Positions 51,040-64,000 of a DNA stretch of 64,000 nucleotides are shown here, in pieces. This stretch comes from Variovorax paradoxus (GTDB lineage: Bacteria > Pseudomonadota > Gammaproteobacteria > Burkholderiales > Burkholderiaceae_C): assembly GCF_022009635.1 (NCBI RefSeq), contig NZ_CP091716.1, forward strand, positions 1,317,001 through 1,381,000. Direction: 5' to 3'. The stretch's first letter is position 1. The number at the start of each line of letters is the position of its first letter. Below the pieces are notes generated by a model. The model had not been told where the DNA came from. It made no database searches and saw only the letters and a program-made list of their open reading frames with translations. The position numbers and the translations under genes were made by a program.

Positions 51040-51781
51040 ACGCAACTACGACGCAGAAATCGCTGATACGGCGGACCATCAATACGCCTATGGCTTCGAC
51101 TTCGACGTGATGCATCCCTACATGCTGCGGTCCTTCGAGCCGTTCATGAACCGGGCGGGCAGCGTGCTGGAACTGGGAAGTTTCAAGGGCGATTTCACGC
51201 GGCGGCTGACGAGCTACTTCGACGACATCACCTGCGTGGAAGCGTCGGATGTCGCCCTGACGGAAGCGAAGCGCAAGCTGGGCGACAAGATCGAGTTCAT
51301 CCATTCGCGCTTCGAAACGGCCAAGCTGCCGCGTCGGTACAACAACATCGTGCTGACCCATGTGCTGGAGCATCTCGACGACCCCGTCGGCCTGCTCAAG
51401 CGCATCAACGATGAATGGCTGGCGGATGGCGGACGCTTCTTCCTGGTCTGTCCGAATGCCAACGCGCCTTCGCGGCAGATCGCCGTGAAGATGGGACTCA
51501 TCACGCACAACGCGGCGGTCACGCCGGCGGAAGATCAGCACGGCCACCGCTGCACCTATTCGCTCGATACGCTGGAGCGTGACGCCGTGGCCGCCGGCCT
51601 GCGCGTCGTTCATCGCAGCGGCATCTTCTTCAAGGCGCTCGCGAACTTCCAGTGGGACCGCCTGCTGGCGACCGACATCATCTCGAAGGAGTACCTCGAG
51701 GGCTGCTATCAACTCGGGCAGGTCTATCCCGATCTTTGCTCCAGCATCTTCCTGATGTGCGAACGGGGACCGAGCAAATGA
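51029..51781 (+). CDS. Class I SAM-dependent methyltransferase
   Basis: A 250-residue methyltransferase. The SAM motif is VLELGSFKGDFTRRL at about residues 47-61, motif II is in CVEASDVALTEAKRKLGD, and NIVLTHVLEHLDDPVGLLKR is the conserved post-II segment. It may methylate a sugar or a chain end, since O-antigen chains are often capped by methylation. It is tightly packed: it overlaps the GNAT gene before it and the split GtrB-like gene after it (ATGA). Confidence 0.9.
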   Translation: MNTERNYDAEIADTADHQYAYGFDFDVMHPYMLRSFEPFMNRAGSVLELGSFKGDFTRRLTSYFDDITCVEASDVALTEAKRKLGDKIEFIHSRFETAKLPRRYNNIVLTHVLEHLDDPVGLLKRINDEWLADGGRFFLVCPNANAPSRQIAVKMGLITHNAAVTPAEDQHGHRCTYSLDTLERDAVAAGLRVVHRSGIFFKALANFQWDRLLATDIISKEYLEGCYQLGQVYPDLCSSIFLMCERGPSK

Positions 51782-52458
51782 AGGTTTCGTTCGTCGTCGC
51801 CGTCTATCAGAACGAAGGCGCGATCTCCAAGACCTACGAGAAGATCAAGGGCGTGTTCGCTGATCAGTTGGCGGCGCATGCCTACGAGGTCATCTTCGTG
51901 GACGACGGCTCGACCGATGGGTCTCTCGCGGAGATACGTCAGCTTTGCGCGGCTGATCCGAACGTGAAGGGACTGACCTTCACGCGCAACTTCGGACAGA
52001 TGGCCGCCATGCTGGCTGGCTTCAAGGAGGCCTCGGGCGACGCTGTCATCAACATCTCGGCCGATCTTCAGGACCCCGTGACGCTGATCCCCCAGATGGT
52101 CGATCAGTGGCTGGCCGGCTCGGAAATCGTCATTTGCCACCGCATCGAGCGTGAAGACAGCTGGCTCGCCAAAACCTATTCCCGCATGGCCTATGGAATG
52201 CTCCGCATGGCCATTCCGCAGATGCCTGCCGGCGGCTTCGATTTTGTGCTGATGGATCGACGGGTGATGGACGAATTCAACGCCATTGACGTGCGGCACC
52301 GATTCTTCCAGGGCGACCTGCTGTGGACAGGGTACCGAACGAGCTTCATTCCTTATGAGCGGCAGAAGCGAACCATCGGGAAGTCGCAGTACAACTTTGC
52401 CAAGAAGCTCAAGAATTTTCTGGATGCGATGCTCGATGCATCGTATTTGCCGATTTGA
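51778..52458 (+). pseudogene. GtrB-like polyprenyl-phosphate glycosyltransferase, 5' part (split by IS3 element)
   Basis: The first 226 residues of a GT2 enzyme that would load a sugar on bactoprenol phosphate. VSFVVAVYQNEGAISKTYEK, VIFVDDGSTDGSLAEIRQL and NISADLQDPVTLIPQMV (metal-binding DLQDP) are typical of the GtrB/ArnC/dolichol-P-mannose synthase type. The element at 52456 cuts it after DASYLPI, and the IS end itself (TGA of TGACCTG) supplies the stop. The missing C-terminal membrane helices lie at 53719-53958. Confidence 0.9.
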
Positions 52459-52510
52459 CCTGCCCCCTTCCGCCGTGCCATTCATAACGAGGAAGTCCGG
52501 GGTTTCAAGA

Positions 52511-53347
52511 TTAATTGATCTCGATGGTGGTTGAGCTGGTTCGAGCAGCATCGCCAGCGCGCTGGCGATGCTGCTCGGCGAACTTTGCCGGTGGCATTCG
52601 CCCACAGCTGCTGTGCGGTCTGACCTCGTTGTAGTCTTGGCGCCAGGCGGTGATGGCCGACCTGGCCTGCATCAGCGTCTCGAACCACTGCTCGTTGAGG
52701 CACTCGTCCCTGAACTTTCCATTGAAGCTCTCGATGTAGCCGTTCTGCATGGGTCGCCCAGGCTCGATCAGGATGTGGCGGATGCCGTGGGTCTGCGCCC
52801 AACCCATGAACGCCCTGCTGGTGAACTCCGGGCCGTTGTCCGTGCGCACGGCCAGCGGGTAGCCCCTGAAGACCGCCGCCTGGTCCAGCAGCCGCGTCAC
52901 GTACTGCCCCGAGATGCCCCAGTCCACCGAGATGCTCACGCACTCGTGGCTGAAGTCGTCGGCCACCGTCAGGCACTTGATGCGCCGCCCGGTGCTCAGG
53001 CTGTCGCTGACGAAGTCCATGCTCCAGACCTCATTGACCGTCCTGGCCAGCTGCAGCGGCACGCGCTCGCTGACGGGCCGCTTGGCCTTCCTGCGCTTGC
53101 GCACGGCCAGGTTGGCCGCGCTGTAGAGCCGGTAGACCTTCTTGTGGTTCACCCCGGGGAAGTGCGGGCGCAGCATGTCGTGGATGCGCCGATAGCCAAA
53201 GCGCCGGCGCACGTGCGCGATCTCCACGATCTTGCTGCTGAGCTCCTGGGTCATGGCATCGATCTCGGGTGGGTTGCGCCAGCTGTCGCGTGAGAGCCCC
53301 ACAAGCCTGCATGCCCGCCGCTCGCTCAGACCGCATTGCTCGATCAT
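52511..53347 (-). CDS. IS3-family transposase OrfB (DDE integrase)
   Basis: A 278-residue catalytic half of an IS407-type transposase. The triad is D in EVWSMDFVSDSL, D in AVRTDNGPEFTS and E in NGYIESFNGKFRDE. LSERRACRLVGLSR near the start is the usual OrfB opening. The frame is -1 to orfA and opens before the ATG at 53347 (GKALAPQAKRAAIATMIEQ), so the working enzyme is expected to be an OrfAB fusion made by frameshifting. Intact. Confidence 0.93.
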   Translation of the reverse strand: MIEQCGLSERRACRLVGLSRDSWRNPPEIDAMTQELSSKIVEIAHVRRRFGYRRIHDMLRPHFPGVNHKKVYRLYSAANLAVRKRRKAKRPVSERVPLQLARTVNEVWSMDFVSDSLSTGRRIKCLTVADDFSHECVSISVDWGISGQYVTRLLDQAAVFRGYPLAVRTDNGPEFTSRAFMGWAQTHGIRHILIEPGRPMQNGYIESFNGKFRDECLNEQWFETLMQARSAITAWRQDYNEVRPHSSCGRMPPAKFAEQHRQRAGDAARTSSTTIEIN

Positions 53348-53379
53348 GGTGGCGATGGCGGCACGCTTGGCCTGTGGGG

Positions 53380-53655
53380 CTAACGCTTTACCCCGAAGGC
53401 GGTGTTCAGCGCGTGGATGTCCAGGTGGGCTTCGGCCAACAGCTTCTTGAGCTTGTTGTTCTCCGCCTCCAGCTCACGCAGGCGCCTCGCATCGGGCACC
53501 TCCATGCCACCGTACTTGGCACGCCACTTGTAGAAGGTGGCGTCGCTGAAGCCGCCCTTGCGGCACAGCTCCTTGATGGGCAAGCCGGCCTCGGCCTGCT
53601 TGATGAAACCGATGATCTGCTCCTCGGTATATCTGCTCTTTCTCATGTCCGTCAT
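53380..53655 (-). CDS. IS3-family transposase OrfA (DNA-binding)
   Basis: A 91-residue OrfA. SRYTEEQIIGFIKQAEAG and IKELCRKGGFSDATFYKWRA make up the helix-turn-helix, and a leucine zipper follows (RLRELEAENNKLKKLLAEAH). It binds the terminal repeats and is fused to OrfB by a -1 shift near its end. Intact. Confidence 0.93.
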   Translation of the reverse strand: MTDMRKSRYTEEQIIGFIKQAEAGLPIKELCRKGGFSDATFYKWRAKYGGMEVPDARRLRELEAENNKLKKLLAEAHLDIHALNTAFGVKR

Positions 53656-53718
53656 TCTCCAAGTTGACGGACTTCACTGCCATTACGCTGGTACGGCTGG
53701 AAGGGGGCAGGTCAGATT

Positions 53719-53958
53719 CGCTTCATTTCGCTCGTCGGTCTCGTGACATCCGCACTCGGCGTGTTGTACAGCCTCAGCATCGTATTTGCATGGATGCGGG
53801 GCGACACGCCTTTCAATGGCTGGGCACCCATCATGATTGCCATCCTGCTGGTGGGCGGGTTGATCATGGTGATGCTTGGGGTGGTGGGCGAGTATGTCTG
53901 GCGCATCAACGAGGAAGTGCGCAAGCGGCCAAACTACGTGATCAGGGACAGGCTTTGA
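53719..53958 (+). pseudogene. GtrB-like glycosyltransferase, 3' part
   Basis: The severed C-terminus of the gene at 51778: RFISLVGLVTSALGVLYSLS begins two membrane helices, and the end GEYVWRINEEVRKRPNYVIR is the classic GtrB tail. Joined to 52455 in frame, the intact protein would have 305 residues. An internal ATG at 53863 or GTG at 53743 could only give a membrane fragment without catalytic domain. Confidence 0.88.
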
Positions 53959-53971
53959 GCCCGGCCTTGCG

Positions 53972-54382
53972 GTGAGCCTTCCGGCCCTCACGAAGCAGTT
54001 TTCGAAGTTCACCGTCATCGGGGCGCTGAACTTTGTTTTCACGCTTGTTCTCTTTTACCTGGCCGTCGTCGTACTGCAGGTCAACCATCTGATTGCGTTG
54101 GTCATCGTCGCGCTTGTCGGGATGTGCCTTACATACACCCTCAATTATTTCTGGGTGTTCAAGCCAAGCGAACGAATCACGTTCGGTGCGCGTTTCGCGA
54201 AGTACATTGCCGCGGGGCTCGTCTCCGTGGGTTTGAATGTCGTGCTTCTGCATCTGCTGACTTCAAAAACCCGTATTCCGCCTTTCTACGGTCAGATGCT
54301 GTTGATTCCGGTGATCGTGGTTTTCAATTTTCTGTCGGCGAAGCTGTGGTCGTTGCGGACTGAACGAGAGGCGGGCCGGTGA
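53972..54382 (+). CDS. GtrA-family membrane protein
   Basis: A 136-residue protein with four membrane helices of the GtrA family, thought to flip bactoprenol-linked sugars. FSKFTVIGALNFVFTLVLFY, TYTLNYFWVFKPSERITF and RFAKYIAAGLVSVGLNVVLL are family segments. It starts at GTG 53972, 13 bases after the GtrB-like gene, and overlaps the next gene by four bases (GTGA). With its GtrB partner split, it may have no substrate. Confidence 0.88.
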   Translation: MSLPALTKQFSKFTVIGALNFVFTLVLFYLAVVVLQVNHLIALVIVALVGMCLTYTLNYFWVFKPSERITFGARFAKYIAAGLVSVGLNVVLLHLLTSKTRIPPFYGQMLLIPVIVVFNFLSAKLWSLRTEREAGR

Positions 54383-58621: not shown

Positions 58622-59395
58622 ATGAAAGCGGTTATTCTGGCAGGAGGCTTGGGAACGAGAATTTCCGAGGAGACCGGTGTGAAGCCGAAGCCAATGATCG
58701 AGGTCGGCGGAAAACCGATTCTTTGGCATATCATGAAAATCTATGCAGCCCACGGTGTGAATGATTTCGTGATTTGCTGTGGATACAAGGGTTATGTAAT
58801 AAAAGAGTATTTTGCTAATTACTTCCTCCATATGTCCGATGTCACTTTCGACATGCTTGGGAATTCGATGGAAGTTCATCAGCGAAATGCGGAACCTTGG
58901 CGGGTAACGCTCATTGATACAGGCGAGAACACCATGACCGGGGGGCGCCTCAAGCGTGTCGCGCCGTATGTGCAGGATGAGGAGCACTTCTGCTTCACCT
59001 ACGGCGACGGTGTGGCAGACGTCGACATCACCGCACTCATCGCGTTCCACAAGGCCCAGAAAGTCGCTGCCACGCTTACCGCTGCGCTGCCGCCAGGCCG
59101 GTTCGGCGCGCTTGATTTCGATGGACACAAAGTCCGCAGCTTCAAGGAGAAGCCCAAGGGCGATGGCGCCATGATCAACGGCGGATTTTTTGTCCTTTCT
59201 CCCGCCGTGCTTGACTACATCAAGGACGACACCACCGTATGGGAGCACGAACCTCTCGAGCGACTGGCGGCTCAGGGGCAGCTCGCAGCCTTCAAGCATG
59301 GCGGCTTCTGGCAGCCTATGGACACCTTGCGCGACAAGACGCATCTCGAGGAGCTTTGGGCGGGAGGCAAGGCACCATGGAAAGTCTGGAAATGA
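58622..59395 (+). CDS. rfbF: Glucose-1-phosphate cytidylyltransferase
   Basis: A 257-residue nucleotidyltransferase making CDP-glucose. [20 protein letters not shown] is the CTP loop and [38 protein letters not shown] and [20 protein letters not shown] are RfbF hallmarks. The length fits the family exactly. AAGGAGGG lies just upstream of ATG 58622. It is the first step of the CDP-3,6-dideoxyhexose branch. Confidence 0.97.
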
Positions 59396-60474
59396 CCGTG
59401 TCTTTTTGGCACGGCAAGCGGGTGTTTCTAACGGGGCACACCGGCTTCAAAGGTGGCTGGCTTGCGCTTTGGCTTGAAAAGCTCGGTGCGGTTGTCACCG
59501 GCTATGCGTTGGACCCGTCCACGCACCCCAGCCTGCATGCGTTGGCATCCGGCCGTTCGACCTCCAACTCCGTGATTGCCGATATTCGTGACCTTCCCCG
59601 GCTGCGGTCTGCCCTGAAGGAGTGCCGCCCGGATGTCGTTTTTCATCTGGCGGCCCAACCCCTTGTGCGGCACTCCTATGCGGACCCGGTGGAAACCTAT
59701 TCCACCAACGTGATGGGCACCGTCAATCTGCTGGAGGCCACACGTGCCTGCGACAGTGTCAGGGCGGTCGTGGTCGTGACCAGTGACAAGTGCTACGAGA
59801 ACCGCGAGTGGCCATGGGGCTACCGCGAGAACGAGCCGATGGGTGGATATGACCCCTACAGCAACAGCAAAGGGTGTGCCGAGCTCGTGGTGGCATCCTA
59901 TCGCTCTTCCTTTTTCAACGAGGCGCACCACAGCGACCACGGTGTCGCTCTGGCAACTGCCCGAGCGGGTAACGTGATTGGCGGCGGCGACTGGTCTGCC
60001 GACCGATTGGTGCCGGATTTGTTGCGGGCTTTTGGCGAGGGACGCACGGCGGACATTCGGAACCCTCATGCGGTACGTCCATGGCAGCATGTACTGGAAC
60101 CGTTGCATGGCTACATGATGTTGGCGGAGCGCTTGTTCACGGAGGGGCCTTCATGGGCGCAGCCTTGGAACTTTGGCCCAGCCGATACCGACGCGCGTCC
60201 CGTGTCCTGGATCGCCGACCAGTTGGTCGCGCTTTGGGGCGGCGGTGCGCATTGGCACACTGACGCCCAAGCTGGGCAGCCGCACGAGGCGAGTTGGCTC
60301 AAGCTCGATTGCTCCAAGGCACGTCAGACCTTGGGCTGGCTCCCTCGCTGGAACCTTCGCCAGAGTCTCGGCGAGATCGTCGACTGGCAGCGCGGTTGGC
60401 TCGACGGTCGTGACATGACCGAACTCACACTCGCACAAATCGAAAAATACGAAAGCACCCCGATCGATGACTGA
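59377..60474 (+). CDS. rfbG: CDP-glucose 4,6-dehydratase
   Basis: A 365-residue SDR-type dehydratase making CDP-4-keto-6-deoxyglucose. [20 protein letters not shown] is the NAD site with the RfbG-specific HTGFKG motif, [17 protein letters not shown] holds the catalytic Ser/Thr-Asp-Lys, and [15 protein letters not shown] the Tyr-Lys pair. GGGAGG sits about nine bases before ATG 59377; homologues usually start at the second ATG (59392, [11 protein letters not shown]), which overlaps the rfbF stop as ATGA. Either is possible. Confidence 0.95.
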
Positions 60475-61798
60475 AATCTCTTTCCAAAAAAATGAACTGC
60501 GCAAGAAGATCCTTGCGCTGGTGGCCGAATACGGCGAATTGGCCAGTGCTCCCGCTTCCTTTGTTCCGGGCGAGACCCTGATTCCGCCGTCGGGCAAGGT
60601 CGTCGGTACACCGGAAATGCAGTTGATGGTCGATGCCTCGCTCGACGCATGGCTGACGACCGGGCGTTTCAACACGCTGTTCGAAAGTCGGTTGGCCGCC
60701 TATCTGGGCGTCAAGCACCTTATGACCGTGAACTCCGGATCGTCGGCAAATCTGGTGGCGTTCTCCGCGCTGACTTCCCCCAAGCTGGGCGACCGGGCGA
60801 TCCGGCCCGGCGATGAAGTGATCGGCGTGGCGGCGGGATTCCCCACCACAGTGAATCCGATCCTGCAGTGCGGCGCCGTGCCGGTGTTCGTGGATGTGCA
60901 TATTCCCACCTACAACATCGATGCGGATCAATTGGAGGCGGCGATCGGTCCGCGGACCAAGGCGATCATGCTCGCGCATACCCTGGGCAATCCGTACAAC
61001 CTGAAAGTCGTCAAGGCCGCCTGCGAAAAGCATGGGCTCTGGCTGGTGGAAGACTGCTGCGATGCACTCGGTGCCCGTTACGAAGGGCAGATGGTCGGTA
61101 CCTTCGGCGACATCGGGACATTGAGCTTCTACCCCGCCCATCACATCACCATGGGCGAAGGCGGCGCGGTGTTCACCAATAACGATGAGCTGCGGCTGAT
61201 TGCCGAATCCATCCGGGACTGGGGCCGCGATTGCTATTGCCCGCCTGGCAAAGACAACACCTGCGGCAAACGTTTTTGCTGGAAGCTCGGCGATCTGCCC
61301 GAAGGCTACGACCACAAGTACACGTACTCCCATCTGGGCTACAACCTCAAGATCACCGATATGCAGGCGGCATGCGCGCTGGCGCAACTCGACCGGCTCG
61401 ATGGTTTCGTGGCGGCGCGCAAAAAGAATTTTGCTTACCTCAAGGACCGTCTGAGCAGCTGTGAAGAGTTCCTGGAATTGCCCGAGCCCACGCCCGGCTC
61501 CGAGCCGTCATGGTTCGGTTTCCCGATCACGCTGCGTGAAGCTGCCAACACCCGGCGCGTCGATCTGCTGACCTATCTCGACCAGCAGAAAGTCGGTACG
61601 CGGCTCTTGTTTGCAGGCAACCTGCTGCGTCAGCCTTACATGATCGGCCGCAACTACAGGGTGGTCGGCGAACTGAAGAACACGGATCGGATCATGAACG
61701 ATACGTTCTGGATCGGCGTTTACCCCGGCCTGACCGAGGCCATGCTCGACCATTCCGTCGCCAGCATCGAGACCTATCTCGGCTTGCGTTTTGACTGA
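60467..61798 (+). CDS. rfbH: CDP-4-keto-6-deoxyglucose-3-dehydrase (E1)
   Basis: A 443-residue PMP-dependent [2Fe-2S] enzyme that removes O3 from CDP-4-keto-6-deoxyglucose with a reductase partner. [20 protein letters not shown] shows His in place of the PLP-binding Lys, diagnostic of this dehydrase. The cluster motif C-X57-C-X1-C-X7-C is intact, counted from the second Cys of VEDCCDA through [12 protein letters not shown]. It starts at ATG 60467 inside the rfbG end. The E3 reductase partner (RfbI/AscD-like) is not seen in the window. Confidence 0.96.
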
Positions 61799-62834
61799 CC
61801 TGGTCCGCCCTGTTCCGGTTGCGGAACTCGATGAAGTCTTGCAGCTGACCGCGCCACAGGTGTGGGCGGGGCTTCGCAATCAATCGGTGTTCCTGACCGG
61901 TGGCACCGGCTTCGTCGGGAAATGGCTGCTCGAATGCCTGCTGCATGCCGAGCATGTGCTGAAGCTGGGGCTGACACTGACCGTGCTGACCCGCGACCCC
62001 GACCGTTTCACCCAGGGCAGCCCGCGCCTGGCAAAGGCCGCGGCCGTGGAATTGCTGAAGGGTGACATTGCCGACTTCGCGCTTCCTCGCCGGCCGTTCT
62101 CCTCTGTCATTCATGCGGCGCTTCCTGTCGCGCCTTCGCAATCGACCGCTGGAGATCTCGAGAAACTGGCTGTAGCAGGGGCGCGCCGGGCCTGCGCGCT
62201 TGCCGCCGCGAGCGGGGCGCACAGGTTCTTGCACATCAGTTCGGGCGCGGTGTACGGCAGCACCACAGGAGCCCAGGCATTCGGCGAAGACCAACCGTGG
62301 AGCGAAGCGGACGACACCAACGCGTACACCCGCGCCAAGCGGGGGGCTGAAAGCGTTGTCTCCGAAGTGTGGCCCTTTGACGTCGTCATCGCGCGCTGCT
62401 TCGCTTTTCTCGGCCCCTATCTGCAGGGAACGAGCGGTGCCGCTCTAGCTCAGTTCGTGGAACAGGCCGTGCATGGCAAAGGCATCGTCGTGCAGGGAAC
62501 GGGTGAGGCCGTCCGTTCCTACCAATACGCGAGCGACATGGCCCGCTGGCTCCTGAGCTGCCTGGTTCTGGGCGCATCGGGACGCGCTTACAACGTGGGT
62601 GGCGATGCTGCAGTGACAATCGCACAGCTGGCCGATGAGGTGACGCGTGTCGCCGGCACGGGCATCCCCGTGCATGTCGCCGGGCAGCCGGCGCGGGGAC
62701 TTGCGGGGCCGCGCTACGTGCCTTCGCTACGGCGCGCCACGGAAGAGCTCGGCCTTGTCAATGCAGTCGGTCTTGAAGAGGGCATCCGCAGAACGCTGTC
62801 GTGGCACGCACCGCTTGAGTCCGCTCTCGATTGA
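61791..62834 (+). CDS. NAD-dependent epimerase/dehydratase-like reductase (CDP-sugar branch)
   Basis: A 347-residue extended [23 protein letters not shown] is the nucleotide site, [11 protein letters not shown] the catalytic Ser region, and [17 protein letters not shown] the Tyr-x-x-x-Lys. Its position straight after rfbH suggests it reduces or epimerises the C4 keto group of the CDP-3,6-dideoxy sugar, like CDP-abequose/paratose synthases (RfbJ/RfbS), or a branched product of it. It starts with TTG 61791 overlapping the rfbH stop by eight bases. Confidence 0.85.
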
Positions 62835-62859
62835 TGCCATTCATCTTTCTTCTTTCAGC

Positions 62860-63672
62860 ATGAAATCTCAATTCGATCCTTCCTCCCTGCGCAAGACGGT
62901 GGTCGAGATGGCCTATGCAGGCAACGCCGTTCACCTGGGGTGTGCCTTCTCGATCATCGAGTTGCTCTCGTGCCTGTACGGGCGCCACATGCGCTACGAC
63001 AAGCTCGTCCCCACCGATCCCATGCGTGACTACCTCGTTCTGAGCAAGGGGCATGGCGTGATGGCGCAATACGCATGCCTGTACGAACTCGGGTGGCTCG
63101 ACCGCTCGGACATCGACAACTACTTCCATGACGGTTCCCGGCTCAAAGGACTGTCGGATGCGCATTTGCCTGGCTGCGAGGTCACGTCTGGTACCTTGGG
63201 CCATGGGCTCTCGGTTGGCGTAGGCTTGGCGTTGGCCGCTTCGCGCCGCAAGACGGGGCAAAAATGCTATGCCGTGATCGGTGACGGCGAAATCAACGAG
63301 GGGCCGATCTGGGAAGCGATGCTGTTCGCTGCGCACGCGAAGCTCGACAACCTCATGATCATCGTGGACGCAAACGGTTTTCAGGCCATGGGTACCACCG
63401 ACGAGGTCATGCAGCTGGGGAATCTCAACGCCAAGTTCTCGGCCTTCGGTTTCGACGTGCTCGCGGTCGATGGCCATGACATGAGCGCGATCTCTTCGGC
63501 CATCGACGAATTGGAGGCTGGCCGAAATGGTCGGCCCAAGGCACTGGTCGCAAAGACGATCAAGGGCAAGGGGGTGTCCTACATGGAGAATGTCAACGCT
63601 TGGCACTATTCGCGCATGAACGCCGATCTTTACGCGCAGGCGTTGCGGGAACTCGACGGAGCCGTGGCATGA
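62860..63672 (+). CDS. Transketolase-like N-terminal (TPP-binding) subunit
   Basis: A 270-residue split-transketolase alpha subunit. SKGHGVMAQYACLYELGWLD, LSDAHLPGCEVTSGTLGHGL and VIGDGEINEGPIWEAMLFAA (the GDG...N thiamine-diphosphate motif) are clear. It forms a pair with the next gene, overlapping by four bases. Housekeeping transketolase is a single chain, so this pair, directly after rfbFGH and an epimerase, is probably dedicated to sugar modification, for example two-carbon ketol transfer. The role is inferred. Confidence 0.88.
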   Translation: MKSQFDPSSLRKTVVEMAYAGNAVHLGCAFSIIELLSCLYGRHMRYDKLVPTDPMRDYLVLSKGHGVMAQYACLYELGWLDRSDIDNYFHDGSRLKGLSDAHLPGCEVTSGTLGHGLSVGVGLALAASRRKTGQKCYAVIGDGEINEGPIWEAMLFAAHAKLDNLMIIVDANGFQAMGTTDEVMQLGNLNAKFSAFGFDVLAVDGHDMSAISSAIDELEAGRNGRPKALVAKTIKGKGVSYMENVNAWHYSRMNADLYAQALRELDGAVA

Positions 63673-64000
63673 GAGCGGCGTTTTCCGCCGCCCTTGTCGA
63701 GGCCGCGACCCGTGACGAGCGTGTGGTGCTCCTGACGGGAGATCACGGTTACGCACTGTTCGACGAATTCCGCAAGCGCTGCCCCGGGCAATACATCAAT
63801 GCGGGGATTGCCGAGCAGAACATGGTCGGCGTGGCCGCAGGGCTGGCGAAGGCCGGCTTCAGGCCTATCGTCTACGGGCTGAGCGCGTTTGTTCCTGTGC
63901 GGGTGGTCGAGCAGATCAAGATCGATGTCTGCTACGAGAAGCTGCCCGTCATCTTCACCGGCGATGGCGCCGGACTCGTCTACAGCACGCTGGGCACGAG
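63669..64000 (+). CDS. Transketolase-like C-terminal subunit (runs off window)
   Basis: The first about 110 residues of the pyrimidine-binding subunit that partners the preceding gene. AAFSAALVEAATRDERVVLL opens it, and NAGIAEQNMVGVAAGLAKAG contains the catalytic Glu that activates thiamine diphosphate. The ATG at 63669 overlaps the alpha-subunit stop (ATGA). The frame is open to the window edge. Confidence 0.88.
   Translation, partial: MRAAFSAALVEAATRDERVVLLTGDHGYALFDEFRKRCPGQYINAGIAEQNMVGVAAGLAKAGFRPIVYGLSAFVPVRVVEQIKIDVCYEKLPVIFTGDGAGLVYSTLGT

Follow-up and report, generated by a model that had tools for sequence, protein, structure and literature searches.

Introduction

In the parts of a 2025 review that could be consulted (PMC12247030), branched sugars are described as products of YerE-like enzymes and of enzymes of the alpha-keto acid dehydrogenase type, with the YerE-like enzymes serving lipopolysaccharide. 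Yersiniose A, for example, has been found in Yersinia pseudotuberculosis, Y. frederiksenii, Burkholderia brasiliensis, Budvicia aquatica and Pseudomonas mandelii (PMC4753412), and the genes for yersiniose are ddhA-ddhD, yerE and yerF (PMC4509608). Transketolases appear in the same parts of the review as proposals only, for miharamycin, amipurimycin and 13 split Streptomycete sequences of Krug et al. 2024, none of which is given there as tested in vitro. The present study deals with a gene cluster at the end of a stretch of 64,000 nucleotides of Variovorax paradoxus DNA (contig NZ_CP091716.1, positions 1,317,001-1,381,000; genome 7.95 Mb), called the window below, in which RfbFGH genes for a CDP-sugar are followed by a gene for a short-chain dehydrogenase/reductase (SDR) and by a transketolase divided over two genes, TKalpha and TKbeta.

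The presumed pathway has in common with that of yersiniose an RfbFGH-type start, a C4-branching enzyme dependent on thiamine diphosphate (ThDP) and a subsequent reductase. The transketolase pair stands in the slot that YerE takes, in an RfbFGH cassette with an SDR, and the SDR families are shared. YerE, however, is an enzyme of the acetohydroxyacid synthase (AHAS) superfamily, whereas the ThDP enzyme of the window is a split transketolase. The pair AviB1/AviB2 is also a two-chain enzyme, proposed to make an acetyl branch on C4 from pyruvate (PMC4753412), but is classed with the alpha-keto acid dehydrogenases (PMC12247030), while TKalpha fits the Transketolase_N model better. The split transketolases of miharamycin and amipurimycin likewise have a sugar ketone as supposed acceptor (PMC12247030), but they belong to secondary-metabolite clusters and are supposed to transfer hydroxyacetyl, whereas the pair studied here occurs with CDP-sugar genes for surface polysaccharides. 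Both of these systems are set apart by their published descriptions.

From gene order, active-site residues and genomic context we put the probability at about 0.58 that the six genes form one cassette for a 4-C-branched CDP-sugar, in which the pair would transfer acetyl from pyruvate as YerE does. In the literature searched besides the review, which mostly lay outside the subscription journals, there was no report of a transketolase in RfbFGH or O-antigen clusters for branched sugars, nor of a wild-type transketolase that joins pyruvate to the ketone of a nucleotide sugar.

The six-gene cassette

The cassette consists of the following genes.

rfbF, 58622..59395, plus strand: glucose-1-phosphate cytidylyltransferase (TIGR02623, 475.6 bits, cut-off 300.25)
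rfbG, 59392..60474, plus strand: CDP-glucose 4,6-dehydratase (TIGR02622, 510.1 bits, cut-off 278.45)
rfbH, 60467..61798, plus strand: 3-dehydrase leading to a 3,6-dideoxy-4-keto sugar (NF011936, 748.3 bits, cut-off 423)
SDR of family c2, 61791..62834, plus strand: TTG start, Epimerase PF01370 at 102.2 bits, proposed to reduce the acetyl branch
TKalpha, 62860..63672, plus strand: 270 aa, ThDP-binding half of a split transketolase (Transketolase_N PF00456, 123.4 bits)
TKbeta, 63669..64586, plus strand: 305 aa, pyrimidine-binding and C-terminal half (Transket_pyr PF02779, 102.4 bits; Transketolase_C PF02780, 56.5 bits)

The order on one strand is rfbF-rfbG-rfbH-SDR-TKalpha-TKbeta, with overlaps of 4 bp (rfbF/rfbG), 8 bp (rfbG/rfbH), 8 bp (rfbH/SDR) and 4 bp (TKalpha/TKbeta) and a gap of 25 bp between the SDR gene and TKalpha. 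This order with overlapping ends had been proposed in an initial annotation made from the letters of the window, and the coordinates and family models bear it out; the same annotation counted five genes and 26 bp in front of TKalpha, where there are six genes and 25 bp. TKbeta passes the end of the window, with only 63669-64000 inside, and its remaining 586 bp were read in the window's own genomic context (locus L007).

All three NCBIfam equivalogs for rfbF, rfbG and rfbH are above cut-off, so that the CDP-glucose 4,6-dehydratase route and an RfbH-type 3-dehydrase are present. The SDR reached no equivalog cut-off among the NCBIfam models; it contains TGxxGxxG and YxxxK, the motifs of an active extended SDR. 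The domains of a split transketolase exceed their Pfam cut-offs, Transketolase_N in TKalpha and Transket_pyr with Transketolase_C in TKbeta, and among solved sequences the best matches come from a split transketolase of Carboxydothermus, one chain for each half (6YAK for TKalpha, 1.4e-53; 6YAJ for TKbeta, 4e-45). TKalpha scores 123.4 bits with Transketolase_N as compared to 42.4 bits with E1_dh. For TKbeta, the dxs model gives 153.6 bits and the best transketolase model 144.7 bits, both under cut-off. The single chain of AHAS-type enzymes (TPP_enzyme_N, M and C) is not found, as TKalpha matches no more than TPP_enzyme_C, and that weakly (22.3 bits), and TKbeta has no match. Among the matches listed, TKalpha is nearest to Variovorax sp. 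E3 (96% identity), and a full-length tkt is encoded separately in the genome of the window.

Active-site residues of the pair

When genome contigs were scanned with 18 aligned TKalpha sequences, at least 595 stretches matched, and the best 80 of 544 relatives were kept, which together with the window locus gave a sample of 81 loci in which open reading frames (ORFs) were compared with the window proteins. The 36 loci with Leu at the His100 position of TKalpha are called the clade here; the other 45 carry other split transketolases. Residues, numbered as in E. coli transketolase, were mapped by sequence alignment: MAFFT for all pairs, phmmer for both chains of the Carboxydothermus enzyme ChTK-F, and a separate alignment with the genome's own Tkt and own DXS. 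Counts refer to 37 clade members, L043 and L166 being left out, and to a canonical set of 24 sequences from 23 loci chosen for Asp at 469.

TKalpha retains the positions of His26, His66 and His261 and the GDG motif with its Asn, and TKbeta those of Glu411, His473, Arg358 and Arg520. His26 and His261 have roles in the transketolase active site, Asp469 contacts the acceptor hydroxyl, and His461, Arg358 and Arg520 make up the phosphate site. The ThDP residues of a transketolase are thus in place, whereas those of the donor and acceptor sites (His100, Asp469, His461) are not. His100 is replaced by Leu in 37/37 clade members (Leu98 in the window TKalpha) versus His in 24/24 canonical sequences; at Asp469, all 37 have Leu (Leu108 in the window TKbeta) and 23/24 of the canonical set Asp. 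At His461, Gly is found in 37/37 (Gly100 in the window TKbeta), but since only 13/24 canonical sequences have His there, this residue is not fixed even in canonical split transketolases. The loop bearing Ser385 reads GDHGYAL. ChTK-F (6YAK/6YAJ) has two chains and belongs to the same fold family, but it keeps His100 and uses hydroxypyruvate (PMC7661550), as opposed to the Leu/Leu/Gly of the clade at His100, Asp469 and His461. The genome's own Tkt has His and Asp at the His100 and Asp469 columns. Its own DXS has Phe and Asp; DXS is, like the proposed enzyme, a member of the transketolase family that uses pyruvate, but it is a single chain and differs from the Leu and Leu of the clade.

These positions bear on the donor. 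Pyruvate differs from hydroxypyruvate only in lacking the C3 hydroxyl, and wild-type E. coli transketolase is unable to use it, but with H100L and D469T on a stabilised background the enzyme takes pyruvate, with propanal as acceptor (PMC10787763). In DXPS, Phe replaces His100, and H100L in GsTK brought pyruvate activity up to one third of that of DXPS (PMC7661550). The clade has at His100 the very replacement that was engineered and at Asp469 a similar one; judged by the alignments, the natural replacement parallels the donor switch made by engineers. Since both His100 and Asp469 are Leu across the clade, acetyl from pyruvate is more likely to be transferred than a ketol unit, and the product would then be yersiniose-like and not a new sugar. 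The RfbFGH product has no free hydroxyl beside its C4 ketone, C3 being deoxy and C5 bearing the ring oxygen, and the loss of Asp469 fits with this.

In a quick tree of 86 pairs (two trait columns masked, L043 left out), the 38 Leu pairs are on one side of a single branch with a Shimodaira-Hasegawa-like approximate likelihood ratio (SH-aLRT) of 100. A separate group of split transketolases (L058, L060, L061, L072, L074, L088 and the second pair of L166) has Leu at Asp469 with His100 kept, and clusters with L052 (SH-aLRT 100).

In three further loci (L044, L147 and L156), the split transketolases next to RfbFGH belong to other lineages, in which His100 is kept and Gln, Leu or Ala stands at Asp469. 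It is possible that enzymes of this type would suit ketol-type branching.

Recurrence of the link with RfbFGH

RfbF, RfbG or RfbH lies within 10 kb of the pair in 28/36 clade loci, against 2/45 loci with other split transketolases (L044 and L052). RfbH itself, counted at 45% identity or more, is within that distance in 26/36, and it is on the same strand as the pair in 29/29 clade loci that hold it, three of these having been chosen through RfbH. The gene neighbourhood that had been suggested for comparison in the initial annotation thus recurs in other genomes, and chance neighbourhood of transketolase and rfbFGH genes is ruled out by this recurrence. Of the ten clade loci without RfbH, seven have less than 5 kb upstream of the pair and three (L024, L029, L035) at least 9 kb; in 7/10 the genome carries RfbH over the curated cut-off elsewhere, where the background rate is 50/399 genomes of the window's order.

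The clade spans at least four phyla, with records from Burkholderiales, Sphingorhabdus, a Rhodobacterales strain, Microcystis, Pseudanabaena, Cyanobium, planctomycetes, bdellovibrios and others. Taxa are mixed in the tree, where Cyanobium, for instance, is grouped with Sphingorhabdus and two Burkholderiales (SH-aLRT 100), an indication that the cassette has been transferred between lineages. In L043, a bin of a Caballeronia symbiont, the transketolase genes are in pieces and rfbH is broken, and the cassette seems to be decaying there.

Relation to YerE-type cassettes

A second sample was anchored on RfbH and comprised 52 places in the 50/399 genomes (51 contexts and the window's own), three of them on short contigs (L106, L133, L154), with the downstream genes clustered. 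The pair is present in 4/52 of these loci (L007, L148, L151, L166), other split transketolases that keep His100 in 2/52 (L147, L156), and an AHAS-superfamily ThDP enzyme, on the same strand and 0 to 6.7 kb downstream of RfbH, in 19/52. Among these 19 YerE-like ORFs, 12 have at least 60% identity to one of three references, the references being among the 12, and the other 7 have 34-40% identity and could be other AHAS-type enzymes. The reference of L119 matches 8RPH ('Thiamine pyrophosphate-binding protein', 8.3e-136) and 5AHK ('acetolactate synthase II, large subunit', 3.9e-79), which we take to be the structures of JanthE and of a Pseudomonas YerE referred to in the review (PMC12247030).

The pair and a YerE-like enzyme occur together in 0/52 RfbH loci, and no YerE-like ORF was found in 39/39 clade loci, many of which are cut by contig ends. 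A YerE-like gene nearby that does the branching, which in the initial annotation would have spoken against the transketolase, was looked for in the window and its cassette; none is present and this candidate is ruled out. The AHAS-like genes of the genome have at most 33% identity over long stretches, with one short piece at 41%, and none is in or near the window.

The two types of cassette also resemble each other in the reductases, counted at 130 bits or more and 230 residues or more. Families c2, to which the window's SDR belongs, and c8 each stand beside both the pair and YerE-like enzymes. One or the other is found in 28/39 clade loci, in 13/19 YerE-like loci and in 2/27 RfbH loci with neither enzyme. 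The 30 members of family c2 comprise 18 next to the pair, 8 next to YerE-like enzymes, 2 next to other split transketolases (L147, L156) and 2 from RfbFGH loci that lack a ThDP enzyme (L126, L130). In its tree, the pair-or-YerE label needs 6 changes. When the pair label is set against all other rows, the starred branches require at least 3 changes, and the YerE label shows no more clustering than shuffled labels do (294/500 as low). L119, of the YerE type, falls together with two pair-type loci of Microcystis (96/95), and L147 and L156 are joined by L140 (YerE) and L026 (pair) at 100/100. The 15 members of c8 are divided over 10 pair-type and 5 YerE-type loci, with at most 60% identity between the types (L166 to L137); the c8 tree has poor resolution, its labels need 2 changes, and they are clustered (3 and 5 of 500 shuffles as low). 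The presence of one reductase family in both types of cassette suggests the same kind of intermediate, a 4-C-acyl CDP-sugar.

Two further variants were seen among the RfbH loci. A NeuB-like synthase lies between or near RfbH and the YerE-like enzyme in L153, L159 and L162 (in L162 with TIGR03569 at 141 bits, under cut-off) and is also near in L144 and L164; it may supply a long 2-keto acid as donor for long branches. RfbFGH loci with an RmlC-like epimerase (TIGR01221 at 164.3 bits in L131) and a different SDR are L125, L131, L134, L135, L143, L167, L168 and others, presumably as expected for an ascarylose-type route.

Neighbouring genes

On the 3' side of TKbeta, just beyond the window, follow a GtrA-like membrane protein and a family 2 glycosyltransferase (GT2; L007:6588-7897), and then ABC-transporter genes on the opposite strand. 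The GT2 gene is kept beside the pair in L009-L015 with 72-97% identity. The GtrA-GT2 pair may serve to attach the branched sugar to a lipid carrier and bring it across the membrane.

Further upstream in the window (51724-53975), an IS3-like element is located inside a GtrB-like GT2 gene, the membrane part of which resumes beyond the element, with a GtrA-like gene at 53972. The element has a transposase ORF at 52511-53347 on the minus strand and terminal inverted repeats at 52453-52471 and 53699-53717; the IS3 label is from the look of the ORF.

Discussion

In the pathway that we propose, RfbF, RfbG and RfbH would by their family identity provide CDP-4-keto-3,6-dideoxyglucose, for which RfbH would need a reductase partner of the RfbI/DdhD type. 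TKalpha/TKbeta would be an enzyme of transketolase fold with a donor site stripped of the residues that favour a ketol donor, and residues and context suggest that with ThDP it decarboxylates pyruvate and adds acetyl to the C4 ketone, yielding a tertiary alcohol. The SDR, to judge from the shared reductase families, would turn the acetyl branch into a hydroxyethyl branch by reducing its ketone, so that a yersiniose-like sugar results. The pair would thus take the place of YerE in the pathway without being homologous to it. The idea in the initial annotation that a dedicated two-subunit transketolase branches C4, after which the SDR reduces, is in part strengthened by the RfbFGH link, the SDR and the absence of a YerE-like gene nearby, whereas its two-carbon ketol unit is probably not what is transferred, with His100 and Asp469 both Leu across the clade. 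Chances are about even that the clade is a native family joining pyruvate to a nucleotide-sugar ketone, next to which the His100-keeping type of L044, L147 and L156 may carry out ketol transfer, giving two chemistries on one acceptor.

Several points weigh against acetyl transfer by the pair. The Leu state arose once on the tree, so that its link to RfbFGH is one event kept and not many, and 3/36 clade genomes have no RfbH over cut-off but weaker matches only, that of L043 being broken. The zero co-occurrence with YerE-like enzymes is weak by itself, because only 6/52 loci carry any split transketolase, and the c8 tree can be explained by a single origin of each type, with no need for repeated exchange. 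As the equivalents of Arg358 and Arg520 are kept, a phosphate-bearing substrate is possible. DXS, a pyruvate user, keeps Asp at the Asp469 column, and the donor of the YerE-like enzymes themselves may be a longer 2-keto acid. Furthermore, the residue argument rests on engineered enzymes that accept aldehydes, and the parts of the review consulted name no transketolase for which ketone acceptance was shown (PMC12247030).

Among the alternatives, transfer of hydroxyacetyl from hydroxypyruvate or a ketose phosphate to C4, after which the SDR would give a dihydroxyethyl branch, has in its favour the transketolase fold with its catalytic residues and the proposals of hydroxyacetyl transfer to keto sugars by the split transketolases of miharamycin and amipurimycin (PMC12247030). 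We consider it unlikely, in view of the two Leu replacements throughout the clade and of reductase families common to YerE-like loci. Even less probable is a pair that acts in the slot of YerE with a longer or other 2-keto acid, such as 2-oxobutyrate, so that the branch is not acetyl. Loss of His100 would open the site to non-hydroxylated donors in general, ErwE of the YerE family prefers longer hydroxylated keto acids (PMC12247030), and a NeuB-like gene adjoins some YerE-like loci; yet beside the pair of the window there is no conspicuous NeuB-like gene or other gene for making keto acids, and none is shared across the clade in the downstream clusters, in which some neighbours are unnamed.

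It is similarly improbable that the pair leaves the CDP-sugar untouched and instead uses ordinary pentose-phosphate substrates or provides a precursor. The main ThDP residues are canonical, as such a role would have it, but the link to RfbFGH is conserved, the equivalents of His461 and Asp469 are lost, and the genome has its separate full-length tkt with His and Asp at the two key positions; on that tkt and the residues, an ordinary pentose-phosphate transketolase was rejected as the identity of the pair.

If acetyl transfer from pyruvate is indeed the function of the pair, the clade would offer natural enzymes with which chiral tertiary alcohols could be made from pyruvate and ketones, a use for which the consulted parts of the 2025 review name no tested transketolase (PMC12247030). 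For the bacteria themselves, the clade would represent a second, unrelated enzymatic route to the C-branched sugars of surface polysaccharides, distributed over at least four phyla, and yersiniose-like sugars would be predicted in bacteria whose cassette lacks yerE, among them some Burkholderiales and Microcystis.

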